A stretch of 64,000 bases of DNA, taken from NCBI RefSeq assembly GCF_009831575.1, contig NZ_WUUT01000001.1:333345-397344 (forward strand), in the 5' to 3' direction. The position numbers were made by a program, and so were the translations under genes. Shown here piece by piece: positions 9,894 to 40,445 of this stretch. How positions within the stretch are numbered: the first letter of the stretch is position 1; each line of letters starts with the position of its first letter. The DNA is from Halovenus carboxidivorans (GTDB taxonomy: Archaea > Halobacteriota > Halobacteria > Halobacteriales > Haloarculaceae). Under the pieces are notes generated by a model. The model searched no databases and had not been told where the DNA came from. It saw only the letters and a program-made list of their open reading frames with translations.

Positions 9894-10853
9894 ATGGAGG
9901 CAGTCGTGCTTGCCGGCGGGTACGCGACGCGATTGTGGCCGATCACCCGCCACCGCCCGAAGATGTTGCTCCCTGTCGGTGAGCGGACGGTCATCGATCG
10001 CATTCTCGCGGAACTGGAAGACGACGACCGGATCGAGACCGTCTATCTCAGCACAAACGAGCGGTTCGCGGACACCTTCGCGGACCACCTCGCGGACTCC
10101 CCCTTCGAGAAACCTCAACTCAGCGTCGAGGAGACCACCGAAGAAGACGAGAAGTTCGGCGTTATCGGTGCACTCGCCCAGCTCGTCGACCGCGAGGGCA
10201 TCGCCGGAGAGGATCTCCTGGTCGTCGCGGGCGACAATCTCATCAGTTTCGATATCTCCGCGTTTCTCGATTTCTTCGCCGAGGAGCGAACGCCGACGCT
10301 GGCGGCCTACGATGTCGGGACGCCCGCCGACGCCAGCGAGTACGGCGTGATCGACCTCGACGGCGACCGGGTCCAGTCCTTCGAGGAGAAACCCGACGAG
10401 CCGCCCAGTTCGCTCGTCTCGATCGCCTGTTACGCGTTCCCGGGCGAGGACGTTCGCTTCGAGGAGTACCTGGCGGGAGACAACAACCCCGACGAACCGG
10501 GCTGGTTCATCCAGTGGCTCCAGAGCCGTCGGCCGGTTCGGGCGTTCACCTTCGACGGCGCGTGGTTCGACATCGGCACGCCGGAGGGGTATCTCGACGC
10601 CGTCGCGTGGGCGCTGGACGGCGAGAACGTCATCGACCCCGGCGCGACCGTCGAAAACACCGAACTCGGGACGAACGTCCACATCATGGACGGCGCACGG
10701 GTCTCCGACTCCTCGCTCGATCGGACGCTCGTCTTCCCGGACGCAGTCATCTCCGAATCGGCGTTCCGGGAGTCGATCATCGACTGCGAGGCGGAGGTCA
10801 ACGGCCTGGACCTCGCCGGTGCGTTGATCGGCGCCCACAGCGAACTGCCCTGA
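9894..10853 (+). CDS. Sugar-phosphate nucleotidyltransferase
   Basis: 319 residues. The N-terminus MEAVVLAGGYATRLWPITRHRPKM carries the GGxxTRLxP...PKxxLP signature of glucose-1-phosphate thymidylyl/uridylyl- or mannose-1-phosphate guanylyltransferases; DLLVVAGDNLISFDI contains the metal-binding Asp, and FEEKP is the conserved product-binding motif. The C-terminal about 60 residues (ENVIDPGATVENTELGTNVHIMDGARV) begin a left-handed beta-helix-like tail, short. It acts in the cytoplasm to make NDP-sugars for glycoconjugates. Which NTP and sugar are used cannot be read off. Start ATG 9894 follows AACGCATATACGCG (TATA-like about 9863-9875). Confidence 0.9.
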   Translation: MEAVVLAGGYATRLWPITRHRPKMLLPVGERTVIDRILAELEDDDRIETVYLSTNERFADTFADHLADSPFEKPQLSVEETTEEDEKFGVIGALAQLVDREGIAGEDLLVVAGDNLISFDISAFLDFFAEERTPTLAAYDVGTPADASEYGVIDLDGDRVQSFEEKPDEPPSSLVSIACYAFPGEDVRFEEYLAGDNNPDEPGWFIQWLQSRRPVRAFTFDGAWFDIGTPEGYLDAVAWALDGENVIDPGATVENTELGTNVHIMDGARVSDSSLDRTLVFPDAVISESAFRESIIDCEAEVNGLDLAGALIGAHSELP

Positions 10854-10898
10854 AACGCAGTGCTTTACTCGCTCGGCGCTGTCTACAGCATCACCGCG

Positions 10899-11135
10899 AT
10901 GGATCTCAATCAGGACATCTTCGTTCGACTGCTGCTCGGCGCGTTCGGATTGACGCTGTTGGCGTTTTTCATCCGCGGGCTGAGCCTCGCCTTCGCCGGT
11001 GCCAACACTGCCGCAACGCTGTCGACGCCCGTGTTCATTCTCGCGATCCTGTGCGCCTTCGCCGGATTCGTCCTCGCGGTGGTCGTCAAGGCGCAGTCAC
11101 TGATCGGCGGGGAGTCCACTCAGTCGACCAGATAA
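10899..11135 (+). CDS. Small two-helix membrane protein
   Basis: 78 residues from ATG 10899 ([17 protein letters not shown]). Two predicted transmembrane helices: about residues 8-32 ([20 protein letters not shown]) and about 40-65 ([19 protein letters not shown]). A GTG at 10860 would lengthen it but lies upstream of a TATA-like TTTACTC. I do not recognise the family. Its 3' end overlaps the convergent tsr3 gene by 16 bases. Confidence 0.6.
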
Positions 11136-11611
11136 TCGTCCTGCACGTCGAGCACCTCCGCCGAGTCCGCACAGTCGGCGTACCGCCGCAGCGGTTCGGC
11201 GTTGAGATCGAGAAACGTCTCGCCCCACCGAAACTTCGAGAGGATCTCCTCCGCCTGCGCGGATTCGCCGAGAATCCACAGCGCGCCCGCGAAGGCCTCG
11301 ACAGTGTTCAACTGGAAGGGCGTGCCGTAGTTGACCGGGTTCCCCGCCACGAGGAAGGGCAGCGACCGCTGCGGGCCGTCGAGATCGAACGCCTCCTCCT
11401 GTGCCGTCTCCCAGGAGCAGTCCAGCGCGATCAGCCGCTCGGCGTCCGCGTCGGCCGGCGACAGCGCCCGCTCGGCGAAGGGGTTGAGGACGATCCCCGG
11501 CGGCGTCGCCGGCGTCGACCGATGCAGTTCCGCGAGACCGAAGCGGGCGAGCTTTCGGGCCGTACACTTCTCGGGGTCGTCGTCGCCCTCGTATCGGACG
11601 TGTAACTCCAC
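11120..11611 (-). CDS. tsr3: Tsr3 / DUF367 rRNA aminocarboxypropyltransferase
   Basis: 163 residues from a GTG at 11611 ([21 protein letters not shown]). Tsr3 transfers an aminocarboxypropyl group from S-adenosylmethionine to the small-subunit rRNA (the acp modification near the P site). Family hallmarks seen: [16 protein letters not shown] at the N-terminus, [10 protein letters not shown] in the RLI-like core, [15 protein letters not shown], and [15 protein letters not shown]. Alternative GTG at 11659 would add 16 residues and overlap the upstream membrane-protein gene, so I prefer 11611. No ribosome-binding site is evident. Family identification is firm; the exact start is not. Confidence 0.88.
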
Positions 11612-11655
11612 ACGCTCGTTACCGACTGCCCGGGCAAAAACCGCTCGCTCGACGG

Positions 11656-11970
11656 TCACTCGCCGTTCTCCGACTCGACCCGGTCTAACAGATACAGATC
11701 GAGCAGCGACAGCAGCATGATCGAGCCGGGAAACGCCACGTTCATCGCCGAGAGCTCGCCGTTGAGCACGCTCGTCACGAACGGTTCGGAGGCGCTGACC
11801 GTGTACGTACTCAAAACGAGCGTGCAGACGAACAGCACCACCCACGCCAGTCCCCGACGGAACCGACGCCTGTAGAGGTGGCCGAACCCGGCCACTAGGA
11901 GCGTCAACCCCACAGCCACCGCCATGTGGAACTCGGTAACCGGGAGTCCCGTCTCTCTCTGTGTTTCCAT
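11656..11970 (-). CDS. Small integral membrane protein
   Basis: 104 residues with three or four hydrophobic helices: about 12-30 ([18 protein letters not shown]), 38-58 ([19 protein letters not shown]) and 78-97 ([18 protein letters not shown]). The [14 protein letters not shown] loop resembles TM2-like small membrane proteins. ATG at 11970 lies about 40 bases after a CTTAAATA element (12009-12016). Function unknown. It ends just upstream of tsr3 on the same strand. Confidence 0.68.
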
Positions 11971-33646: not shown

Positions 33647-33720
33647 GGGCCAATAGCTCAGTTAGGTTGAGCGCTCGGCTGATAACCGGGAGGTCCGCGG
33701 TTCAAATCCGCGTTGGCCCA
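33647..33720 (+). tRNA. tRNA-Ile (anticodon GAT)
   Basis: 74-nt cloverleaf. Acceptor GGGCCAA pairs with TTGGCCC at the 3' end, discriminator A at 33720. D arm: TAGCTCAGTTAGGTTGAGC. Anticodon stem/loop CTCGGCTGATAACCGGG with GAT; T arm GCGGTTCAAATCCGC. No intron. No CCA is encoded. CTTAAC about 27 bases upstream (33609-33614) may be its promoter. Confidence 0.97.
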
Positions 33721-33913
33721 CTATCTTTGCGGACGGTTTTTAGCCGAACAGACTCCCGTCTATGGCTAGAGAACGGCCTTTCGTGATTCGGCTTCTGAGA
33801 GTCGGATCTGGTCATAAACAGACGGCCGCTGAGCACGACAGCGGTACCGGCATTTACTCAGGCATTCACCCACCTGATTGTTTCACGATTAAAAAATACT
33901 GGCTGCTAAAGTA

Positions 33914-34405
33914 CTACGACGATGAGTCGGAATAAATAATCTCCGAGTTTTGATCAGCAGGGTTCCACACGATCTCAATTTCCCACTCTTCAATCGGTGT
34001 AGACCCGCTACCGTCAACAGCTCCACTAGTGGTTACGGTCTGTCCGTTGATCGTTGCGTCTGTTGTATTTATCCGAATTGTGTCGCCTGCGGTCACCTCA
34101 TCCAGATTAGCACGACCAGCATCCAAGTCGAATTCCACCTCAGACCCCCCAACTGTGCCTTGAATCGTCGCGACGCTCGCATCAAAATCGTCGCCTCCTG
34201 TCACATCAAGGGTCAGATTATTATTTTCGATGCTGGCATCAATTGTCGGCGTCGGCGCGGGGTCATTGCTACTGTCACCAAGCCCGAGCACGAACGACGC
34301 GATCACGGCCGCGAGAATCACGGTAATCGCGACCATCAGAATCACGCCGATCACTGGGCTCACTGCACTGCTGTCGTCCTGCAACATGCTCTTTATTCGC
34401 TGCAT
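33914..34405 (-). CDS. Type IV pilin (archaeal PilA/DUF1628 type)
   Basis: 163 residues from ATG 34405; a TTG at 34417 in frame is less likely. Class III signal-like start: MQRIKSMLQDDSSAVSPVIGVILMVA with the hydrophobic helix (AITVILAAVIASFVLGLG) of archaeal pilins; the SxAVSPVIGV motif is the hallmark. The mature extracellular part is Thr/Ser/Asp-rich with repeated strand-like segments. Haloarchaeal pilins of this type form adhesion pili. Low GC and AT-rich codons distinguish it from its neighbours. Leaderless: GTTTATTAC at about 34432-34440. Confidence 0.88.
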   Translation of the reverse strand: MQRIKSMLQDDSSAVSPVIGVILMVAITVILAAVIASFVLGLGDSSNDPAPTPTIDASIENNNLTLDVTGGDDFDASVATIQGTVGGSEVEFDLDAGRANLDEVTAGDTIRINTTDATINGQTVTTSGAVDGSGSTPIEEWEIEIVWNPADQNSEIIYSDSSS

Positions 34406-34662
34406 GAACAAATCCAAACTCAGATCGATATGTAATAAACCCCGGTGTCCGATTATACAACGTGAGACGTGAATCCAAAATTGAAATACTATTTCGGCTG
34501 GATAAGTGCGTTTTCACTCAGAGAAAATGTCTCTCTATCCGTCGATTTTCGACTGCCAAGTACCTTTGTGATAGCTGTCACGACAGATTGATCCGCCCGC
34601 TAAGAATCACGTCAGAAAATCCCGGATGATACTCGCGTTACGCCGCGGTCGCCGGAGTCGGC
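34406..34662. other. Intergenic, low-GC, pilin promoter side; no gene seen
   Basis: Between the pilin and the second transducer gene, both on the minus strand. The part next to the pilin contains GTTTATTAC (TATA). The rest (AAATTGAAATAC, AAAATGTCTC) is AT-rich but has no frame of coding composition. Confidence 0.5.
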
Positions 34663-37221: not shown

Positions 37222-38385
37222 ATGCGCATCGCAACTGTCATCATGCTGCTGGGGCTGCTCGCGGGAATCGCCGGTTCTCAACTCGCGGGACTCAGGCTCG
37301 GAGGTGTCATGATCGTGCCGCTCGTTACGGTGTACTTTTTCCTGAGCTTCGCGACGTTCCCAGTGTTCGTCCTGAGCGTGATCGCGGCGTACGTTTCGCT
37401 GTGGATCATCAAGCGTCGACTGCTGCTGTACGGTCGCTATCTGTTCATCGTGAGCGTCCTCGTCGGTGCTCTCGTTCCCGTACTCGTCTTCGACCAACTC
37501 GTGATCATCGCGGGAATCGACGCCGAACTCACCCAGATCGAATTCGTCGGAAGCGTCCTCCCAGGTATCGCCGCGTACAACTACCACCGGATCGACGACG
37601 AACGCCGCGTCCTCGACATGGTCGCGAGCCTCGCAGTCGTCCTGTTTCTGACTGTCGTCGGTATCGGGCTGGTCATCTTGGTGGGACTCACGCCGCTGGC
37701 GACGGTGACGCCCCCGCTGCTGTTGAGCCCCGAATCCGACATTGCGGCCGCGTTCGATCTCACCGTCACGCGCTCGATGGTGCCAGTCATCGCATCGGAT
37801 GGTGTGGTCGCCGCTCTCCTCATCGGCGGAACCGCGCTCTCGGAGGGGGTGCGGTCGCGGTACGGCCTGCGGATCGCGGGTGTGGTCGTCGTCCCGCTGA
37901 TCGTGCTGGCGATGTTTCGCAACAGTTGGATGCTCGGGCTCTGGATCGGATCGACGGCGCTGGCGTACCTCAGTATTCGCGCGCTCCACTGGTGGACACT
38001 GCTGTACGGTCGCGTCCTGCTCGCGTTCGCGTTTATTATCGGGCTCATCGTCTCGATTTCGGCGACGGTCGCGATTCCGGTTCGCCACGGGCTCTTACCG
38101 TTTTTCGTCGGCCTGTTCGCCGGCGTGACGGCGTACAACTTCTATCTCGTTCCCCCAGCAGAGCGTCGTGCGGCGGTGCTGGTCACCGGCGGAGCGGTCG
38201 TCCTGCTGGCGGCCGTCGCACGGCTACTCGTCTCGCCCCCACCTCGGGGTCTGCTCCATACCGTCTCGCAACTTGATCTGCTCGTCGGCGCCGCGGTACT
38301 GGTCGCCGCCGGCTACGAACTGTCTCAGCTCGAACGCCTTCGCCCCCACCAGTCCATCGACGTTCAGTTCGTCGATACGAAGTAA
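37222..38385 (+). CDS. PgsC/CapC-like membrane protein, internally duplicated
   Basis: 387 residues from ATG 37222, polytopic with roughly 12 helices. Poly-gamma-glutamate synthase C subunits are normally about 150 residues with one unit. Here two units are visible: about 1-160 and about 190-340, each with ...GGVMIVPLV / AGVVVVPLI, then YVSLWIIKRRLLLYGRY / YLSIRALHWWTLLYGRV, then SVLPGIAAYNYHRID / GLFAGVTAYNFYLVP followed by a helix. The matched LLYGR and AYN(Y/F) positions make this duplication certain by eye. It is followed 2 bases later by a PgsB-like ligase. Haloarchaea are known to make extracellular poly-gamma-glutamate in some lineages; PgsA is not seen here. Confidence 0.87.
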   Translation: MRIATVIMLLGLLAGIAGSQLAGLRLGGVMIVPLVTVYFFLSFATFPVFVLSVIAAYVSLWIIKRRLLLYGRYLFIVSVLVGALVPVLVFDQLVIIAGIDAELTQIEFVGSVLPGIAAYNYHRIDDERRVLDMVASLAVVLFLTVVGIGLVILVGLTPLATVTPPLLLSPESDIAAAFDLTVTRSMVPVIASDGVVAALLIGGTALSEGVRSRYGLRIAGVVVVPLIVLAMFRNSWMLGLWIGSTALAYLSIRALHWWTLLYGRVLLAFAFIIGLIVSISATVAIPVRHGLLPFFVGLFAGVTAYNFYLVPPAERRAAVLVTGGAVVLLAAVARLLVSPPPRGLLHTVSQLDLLVGAAVLVAAGYELSQLERLRPHQSIDVQFVDTK

Positions 38386-38387
38386 CC

Positions 38388-39581
38388 ATGTCCGGCTGGC
38401 TCCAGGACGACGGTGCCGCGATTCGTGACGCGGTTTCGACGGCGTTCAGCGATATCGTCAACGCGCTCGGTGCCGGTCCCACACACCGACACAGGGTCTC
38501 CAATATCGACATTCGGATCGTCGTGACCGGGACACGCGGGAAATCGACCGCGACGGAGTGGCTCCACGATATCTTCCACCGTCGCGGCTACGACACCTTC
38601 GCCAAAGTGACCGGGACGAGACCAGTCTCGCTGTACAACGGTCAGTCCCACGACATCGATCGATCGGACCAGGTCCGCCTCTACGAAAACGAGCGAGAGC
38701 TCAGACGATTCGGCGATGTCGACGTAGCAATCGCGGAAAATCAGGGGATTCGGCAGTATACGACCCGGCTGGTCAACGAGTCGTACTTCGACCCACACGT
38801 CGTGTTCCTCACCAACATCCGCGAGGACCACCTCGATACTCTGGGACACGACCGCGTCCAGATCGCCAGATCGCTCGCCCGGGCTGTTCCCTCCGGTGCC
38901 GTCGTCGTCAACGGCGAATCCGATCCCGCCCTGCGGTCCTACCTGGAGGCCGAACTCCGTCGCCGTGATGCGCCCGTCAGACACGTCTCCGTTCCATCCG
39001 CTTCGGAGTGGATTCCCGGTGCCGAACTCGTCTACGGCGTCGACGAGGTCTTGCGCGCGACCGACACGGATCCCCTCGACCCGGAATCGATCCGTCGCCG
39101 CCTCGACGACCTCGTCCCGCACTGGCGCGTCTTGCCCGGTGGACGCGCCTACAACGCCGCCGACGTCAACGACGTCCAGAGCACCGAGATCGTTCGCCGC
39201 GCTCTCGTCGGTGACGGGGGCCAGCCGATCGAGCCGCTGTTGTTCCTGCGCCCAGACCGCCGCGGCCGGACGGCCTCGTTTTTCCGCTATCTCACTCGAC
39301 TCGTCGAGGCGGATCTCGCCGAACGCGTTTTCGTCGGCGGCGGCGGGAGCGACGCGTTTGCAGAGAAGGCCGACTTCCCAGTCGAGACCTACGATGTCGG
39401 CTCGGACCCGCCGGAAGCGGTACTGGACCGTGCGCTGGAGGCGGACCGACCCCTCGTCGTCATGGGTAACACCGTCCACGAGTTTATGCGCGACCTCGAT
39501 ACCTGTATTACGGAACGGACGATGACGAGGCGGCCACCGGCGTCGCGGTCCGAGCGACAGCTAATCGAGGAGGGTCTGTAA
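38388..39581 (+). CDS. PgsB/CapB-like Mur ligase
   Basis: 397 residues, cytoplasmic or membrane-associated. Mur-ligase P-loop IVVTGTRGKSTATEW (residues about 44-58, the CapB-type GTRGKS), VAIAENQG, and FLTNIREDHLDTLG with the conserved Asp/His for metal/ATP as in CapB. Middle ATPase domain continues to about residue 290. Predicted to add glutamate to the growing poly-gamma-glutamate chain with PgsC. Start ATG 38388, two bases after the pgsC stop, hence one operon. A folylpolyglutamate-type substrate is less likely because of the partner. Confidence 0.88.
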   Translation: MSGWLQDDGAAIRDAVSTAFSDIVNALGAGPTHRHRVSNIDIRIVVTGTRGKSTATEWLHDIFHRRGYDTFAKVTGTRPVSLYNGQSHDIDRSDQVRLYENERELRRFGDVDVAIAENQGIRQYTTRLVNESYFDPHVVFLTNIREDHLDTLGHDRVQIARSLARAVPSGAVVVNGESDPALRSYLEAELRRRDAPVRHVSVPSASEWIPGAELVYGVDEVLRATDTDPLDPESIRRRLDDLVPHWRVLPGGRAYNAADVNDVQSTEIVRRALVGDGGQPIEPLLFLRPDRRGRTASFFRYLTRLVEADLAERVFVGGGGSDAFAEKADFPVETYDVGSDPPEAVLDRALEADRPLVVMGNTVHEFMRDLDTCITERTMTRRPPASRSERQLIEEGL

Positions 39582-39662: not shown

Positions 39663-40445
39663 ATGGATTTCGGACTCAGCGACCGAACCGCAGTGGTCAC
39701 AGGCGGCGGCGGACGAATCGGAGGGGAAGACTGTCGAGTGCTCGCCGGCGAGGGGGCCGAAGTCGTCGTCCTCGATGTCAACCTCGATGCCGCAGAGACC
39801 GTCGCCGAGGAGATCAACGACGGGGACTACGCCGGGGAGGCTCACGCCATCGAGTGTGACCTCACCGACCGCGAGGACGTGAGCGAGACCGTCGACGCGC
39901 TGGAGGAGGAGACAGGGGGGATCGACATCCTCGTCAACAACGCCGGGATGGTCGACGCCCGCGACCGCGTCGAGTCCTTCGACGACGAGATCTGGGACCG
40001 TGACATCGCGGTGAACCTCACCGGCGCGTACAACATCACGACCGAAGTCTTCCCGCATATGAAAGAGCGCGAGTGGGGGCGGATCATCAACATGTCCTCG
40101 ATGGCCGGCTGGCAGGGCGGGTTCGGACAGCTCTCGTACTCGGCGACGAAGGCGGCGCTGATCGGCTTCGGAAAGACGCTCGCGCTGGAAGGCGCACAGC
40201 ACGGCATCACCTCCAATATCATCGCGCCGAGCATCGTCGTCGGCCAACTCGCGGAGATGCCCATCGAGCAGCTCGAAGAGGTCGACGAGCATTTCGCCCG
40301 CATCGCGAAAGCGACGCCGATGCGGAAGCTCGGCAAAGAGGAAGACGTGGCGAATCTCGTCGCGTATCTCTCCGCAGAACAGTCGAACTACATCACCGGA
40401 CAGGTCATCGGCGTGACCGGTGGTATCGATCTCTTCTCGTTCTGA
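39663..40445 (+). CDS. SDR family oxidoreductase
   Basis: 260 residues, complete canonical SDR: TGGGGRIGG (nucleotide loop), NNAGMVD, catalytic Ser in INMSSMAG, catalytic YSATKAA, and YITGQVIGVTGG at the C-terminus. The family often reduces 3-oxoacyl thioesters or oxidises hydroxyacyl-CoAs; substrate unknown. TATA-like CATTATAATC at about 39630-39639 is about 28 bases before ATG 39663 (leaderless). Confidence 0.93.
   Translation: MDFGLSDRTAVVTGGGGRIGGEDCRVLAGEGAEVVVLDVNLDAAETVAEEINDGDYAGEAHAIECDLTDREDVSETVDALEEETGGIDILVNNAGMVDARDRVESFDDEIWDRDIAVNLTGAYNITTEVFPHMKEREWGRIINMSSMAGWQGGFGQLSYSATKAALIGFGKTLALEGAQHGITSNIIAPSIVVGQLAEMPIEQLEEVDEHFARIAKATPMRKLGKEEDVANLVAYLSAEQSNYITGQVIGVTGGIDLFSF

Follow-up and report, generated by a model that had tools for sequence, protein, structure and literature searches.

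Two adjacent forward-strand genes of Halovenus carboxidivorans, located within the 64,000-nucleotide stretch of DNA analysed here (the window), probably encode an archaeal PgsBC-type synthase and exporter of poly-gamma-L-glutamate that functions in the absence of a dedicated PgsA. The slime of natto is likewise a glutamate polymer. The first gene (37222..38385) is an intact, capC-like open reading frame from ATG to stop and encodes a 387-aa protein with two CapC units in one chain; the second (38388..39581) encodes a pgsB-like, ATP-dependent amide ligase of 397 aa. By the ORF calls in the window, the capC stop and the pgsB start are separated by 2 bp. The next gene is an SDR gene at 39663, and no CapA-like gene lies between it and pgsB. 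The host genome assembly consists of 10 contigs and is 98.3% complete.

A preliminary description of this DNA, made from its letters and ORF translations, had proposed two full CapC units on the basis of paired LLYGR and AYN motifs, and both the units and the motifs were substantiated. PF14102 matched the protein twice (93.8 bits in total), and each half analysed alone scored above the cut-off of 27 bits: 68.1 bits for the first unit (residues 10-127; 37249..37602) and 41.4 bits for the second (residues 203-307; 37828..38142). Counting from the ATG, the complete units span residues 1-182 and 186-380. The halves are 32% identical over 149 columns, and their alignment score (z 12.9) was reached in 0 of 2000 shuffles; the second half, with a PF14102 match of its own, is thus related to CapC. 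YGR and AYN are conserved in each half. In the DNA, the sequences coding for the paired LLYGR motifs (residues 68-75, 37423..37446; residues 260-267, 37999..38022) form a direct repeat (D6) that is 83% identical at a spacing of 576 bp, or 192 codons. G71 and R72 of the first stretch are invariant in 41 proteins, as are Y262, G263, and R264 of the second.

The identification of the downstream gene as a CapB-type ligase was likewise correct. The protein is of the P-loop Mur/FolC type (PF08245, 40.2 bits), and in its GTRGKS P-loop (residues 48-53; 38529..38546) G48, R50, G51, and K52 are invariant among 37 aligned PgsB-like proteins. Its predicted model best matched FolC (1w78) and folylpolyglutamate synthases (E 1e-12). 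FolC shares with the window PgsB this predicted fold and gamma-glutamyl ligation with ATP, but is soluble and adds only a few glutamates to folate. A large group of other haloarchaeal PgsB-like proteins (L070:11038-12678 and similar) is longer at the N-terminus by about 130-150 aa, and this added part has a weak likeness to DUF1508 (19.8 bits against a cut-off of 22).

Scores against the bacterial equivalog models were below the curated cut-offs for both proteins (CapC, TIGR04011, 27.9 bits against 96.45; PgsB, TIGR04012, 84 bits against 222.7), which makes them distant relatives of the bacterial proteins. As in bacterial PgsBCA/CapBCA systems such as B. subtilis pgsBCA, a PF14102 CapC and a GTRGKS-bearing Mur/FolC-type PgsB are encoded side by side; unlike in those systems, CapC is doubled, capC precedes pgsB, capA is absent, and the NCBI equivalog cut-offs are missed. 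Because of these scores and the absence of PgsA, the pair should not be assigned to the bacterial PgsBCA family; it is a variant of the PgsBC kind. For the number of units in bacterial CapC we relied on a published account (five helices; PMC6029982) and on the 132-position TIGR04011 model.

An AlphaFold2 model of CapC, built with 41 doubled CapC proteins (pLDDT 88.8, pTM 0.88), contained 13 predicted helical segments. Six in the first half (2-22, 31-41, 45-67, 72-97, 105-123, 126-155) are matched by six in the second (193-214, 223-233, 236-259, 263-281, 292-309, 312-336), and one extra C-terminal helix (350-373) lies beyond the two repeats. Basic residues cluster in the same two loops of each half, the one that follows helix 1 and the one that joins helices 3 and 4. 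Charges and helix order thus suggest that each unit crosses the membrane six times and that the predicted repeats are parallel, with the same orientation, as they would be in a CapC dimer. A pseudo-dimer, as proposed earlier, is compatible with this predicted structure of two apparently same-oriented six-helix repeats. An inverted-repeat topology, expected with five crossings per unit, was considered and is not favoured, since the model has six helices in each unit and its basic loops occupy corresponding positions in the two, a judgement that rests on loop charges. Sequence and fold searches returned no convincing solved relative of CapC: the best Foldseek hit had an E of 0.17, and the best VIA match, to MtrC (Z 6.0), was no stronger than is expected between helical proteins in general. 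A putative CapC channel would therefore have no solved relative in its support, and we counted this against the reading of CapC as an export path.

The duplication had been presented as an unusual property of this locus, but doubling proved to be the haloarchaeal norm. CapC occurred in 56 of the 293 genomes sampled from the order. A single-sequence query of the genome contigs gave no match, and an alignment query was needed. In the 60 neighbourhoods examined (59 fetched plus the window), both units were in a single ORF in 55. The remaining five comprised two with a frameshift-split CapC, one remnant, one divergent protein in which only one unit scored, and a locus where no CapC was detected beside PgsB. 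A PgsB-like protein directly followed CapC in nearly all loci. When the halves were separated, all N-halves formed one clade and all C-halves the other (100/98, in 100% of bootstrap trees), with each half of the window protein inside its own clade; one ancient duplication, read from this tree, thus preceded the spread of the doubled-CapC family. Some Methanosarcinaceae (L119, L155, L156, L157; Methanohalophilus and relatives) also have doubled CapC/PgsB, and their halves nest among the haloarchaeal ones, a placement that suggests passage from haloarchaea to halophilic methanogens. A single-unit CapC also occurs in archaea: in genome G542, distantly related within the phylum, a protein of about 160 aa (L153:9894-10499) is followed by a PgsB-like gene (10397-11719). 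CapC was frameshift-split in three genomes (L054:9951-11144, L074:9531-10621, L140:5001-6281), by recent inactivation or assembly error, and a remnant of CapC that contains an in-frame TAG (L154:10395-10637; G577), from a genome in the Methanosarcinaceae group, is probably a pseudogene.

The pair was probably gained horizontally, to judge from gene order and the distribution of copies: the gene order of one same-genus genome (L166) follows that of the window from 39630 to the right, but directly left of that point it does not, and same-genus genomes have no close copy of capC-pgsB, which is absent at the same site in those relatives. A tRNA-Ile gene (33647-33721) lies 3.5 kb upstream of capC, and the low-GC stretch that comes after it contains a type IV pilin gene (33914-34417). 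The region after the tRNA gene is a possible insertion region. We rejected the tRNA-Ile as the integration site itself, no matching repeat having been found at the right edge.

The statement that no PgsA lies beside the pair was accurate for the locus, and the sole PF09587 protein of the genome is encoded elsewhere, on contig C6 (39532-40272). Across the 60 neighbourhoods, 35 had capC-pgsB alone, 13 had a linked capA, and 15 had a hydrolase directly downstream, three of these also with capA. Among the closest relatives of the window copy, whose CapC is about 47-65% identical, five have a capC-pgsB-capA row, Haloarcula argentinensis (L036/L097) being one of them. A pgsA-like gene is thus found adjacent to the pair in close relatives, and the absence of capA in the window is a local loss or variant and not a property of doubled CapC. 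Within this clade capA comes and goes, and five of the nine members keep it linked. The window copy might therefore have lost a needed part. Taken further, this would make the pair a decayed remnant of an operon that lost capA and no longer functions, as the retention of capA in those five members and the missing pair at the site in same-genus relatives could imply. We consider such decay improbable: neither ORF is interrupted and every invariant residue is present, three other members of the clade (L073, L076, L078) keep an intact pair with no linked capA, and CapC-bearing genomes without PF09587 are common (18/56).

PgsA might instead be supplied in trans, the C6 protein completing a PgsBCA system with split genes. 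That protein scores well (PF09587, 233 bits) and has a secreted, lipoprotein-like N-terminus; PF09587 occurs with CapC slightly more often than expected by chance (38/56 CapC-bearing against 117/237 other genomes, p 0.017); and one genome, G157, has an unlinked CapA that does fall in the synthase clade. The domain tree, however, separates copies linked to capC/pgsB from a solo group (100/100 branch), and the window genome's protein belongs to the latter, which is also found in genomes without CapC, one of them of the same genus. By this placement the C6 protein is probably not a dedicated PgsA, and a split PgsBCA is an unlikely explanation, if marginally less so than decay of the pair. The neighbours of the C6 gene (L004:9452-11917) look by eye like a PQQ-type beta-propeller and a DoxX/HTTM-like membrane protein. 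Doubling of CapC as compensation for a lost PgsA was also considered and was rejected, since loci with linked capA have doubled CapC too.

A natural system in which PgsBC would act alone is available for comparison. Natrialba aegyptia DSM 13077, which we take to be the strain used in the PGA-secretion papers, has two doubled CapC/PgsB loci (L109/L158 and L159), one with a PF05908 hydrolase downstream. Its loci resemble the window in the order doubled CapC then PgsB and in the lack of capA, and glutamate racemase (TIGR00067) has no match in either genome; they differ in CapC sequence (about 35% identical), in number, and in the one linked hydrolase. PF09587 had no match anywhere in the N. aegyptia genome, a draft in which a capA could have been missed. 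N. aegyptia is reported to secrete L-PGA of >1000 kDa (PMC3815933, PMC4187202) and to be without glutamate racemase activity (PMC4187202). The suggestion that the polymer is short or intracellular is accordingly less likely, the same gene pairs being present in a secretor of such large chains. Nor is it strictly the case, as had been assumed, that known synthases require PgsA: when pgsBC was expressed in the absence of pgsA, B. subtilis made 26 g/L of L-rich PGA, as compared to a D-rich polymer with pgsBCA (PMC6029982), although earlier work disagreed. Like the window pair, that strain is free of PgsA, and an L-rich polymer would be expected of both; unlike it, the strain has a single-unit PgsC and is an engineered over-expresser, not a natural system.

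N. aegyptia, the 18 of 56 CapC-bearing genomes without any PF09587, and B. subtilis pgsBC together point to PgsA being dispensable for an all-L polymer, rather than necessarily replaced by something else, as had been suggested as one possibility. Doubling as the reason for this dispensability is possible but not supported, since PgsA comes and goes whereas doubling stays constant, and since the single-unit PgsC of B. subtilis also works without PgsA. More tentatively, and with less confidence than we place in a PgsBC-type synthase as such, the haloarchaeal pairs may form a distinct synthase class, in which the fused CapC pseudo-dimer would be a complete export unit, PgsA would be naturally dispensable, and the long all-L polymer of Natrialba would be the product.

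The neighbouring hydrolases bear on the identity of the polymer. The enzyme encoded downstream of pgsB, first noticed by its motifs, belongs to PF05908 (of three representatives, two scored 28.6 and 41.3 bits and the third 19.9, against a cut-off of 22), and in the examples read its N-terminus carries a Tat-like (twin-arginine) signal. PF05908 was found in 22/56 CapC-bearing genomes as compared to 20/237 others (Fisher p 1e-7, a guide only, as related genomes are not independent). Enzymes of this family degrade L-containing polymer and not all-D polymer (PMC4497714); given that specificity, the linkage and enrichment lend independent support to a gamma-glutamyl polymer containing L-glutamate as the product. 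The window genome has one PF05908 gene, unlinked, on contig C5. A second, more distant PF05908-like hydrolase lies next to the Tat-type one or on its other side in ten loci (L040, L042, L044, L060, L064, L106, L107, L122, L125, L131), which thus carry two hydrolases.

The pair could also make the backbone of another gamma-glutamyl polymer rather than free poly-gamma-glutamate, for example the glutaminylglycan wall polymer of Natronococcus, a gamma-glutamyl backbone with oligosaccharides. Mur/FolC ligases use varied acceptors, and this is in keeping with such a product. An archaeal CapB has been suggested to take part in glutaminylglycan synthesis (PMC11915815). However, the linked PF05908 enzymes are polyglutamate hydrolases by family, N. 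aegyptia with the same gene pair secretes free L-PGA (PMC4187202), and no glycosyltransferase was found among the scanned neighbouring genes of the window. We consider a glutaminylglycan backbone unlikely, if slightly less so than the other two alternatives weighed above, and favour a free poly-gamma-L-glutamate.

The proposed operation of a PgsBC-type synthase is as follows: PgsB, FolC-like and at the cytosolic face, would join L-glutamate through its gamma-carboxyl using ATP, while CapC would anchor PgsB in the membrane and form, or help to form, the exit path for the anionic chain. With two same-oriented units and an extra C-terminal helix, one CapC chain would be composed like a dimer of CapC. 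We expect the polymer produced to be all-L and to lie outside the cell.

Neither the protein families nor the notion of a polyglutamate capsule in haloarchaea is new (PMC1544339, PMC11915815). In Haloquadratum walsbyi, which like the window genome has haloarchaeal capB/capC, these genes were proposed for a PGA capsule in a paper that reports CapBCA; the portion of that paper available to us does not mention a doubled CapC (PMC1544339), nor does any of the other literature found. That literature yielded no experiment on a haloarchaeal pgsBC gene, which counts against the proposed reading, and PgsC has been stated as not found in archaea (PMC4497714). The doubled CapC would be the archaeal counterpart so reported as missing. 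Named genes are now testable in N. aegyptia, a known producer of L-PGA without detected PgsA, and the disputed role of PgsA, whether in polymerisation, export, or the use of D-glutamate, becomes directly testable in a natural system. Given that no solved relative of CapC was found, the two-unit, single-chain protein would also be a convenient target for structure determination.
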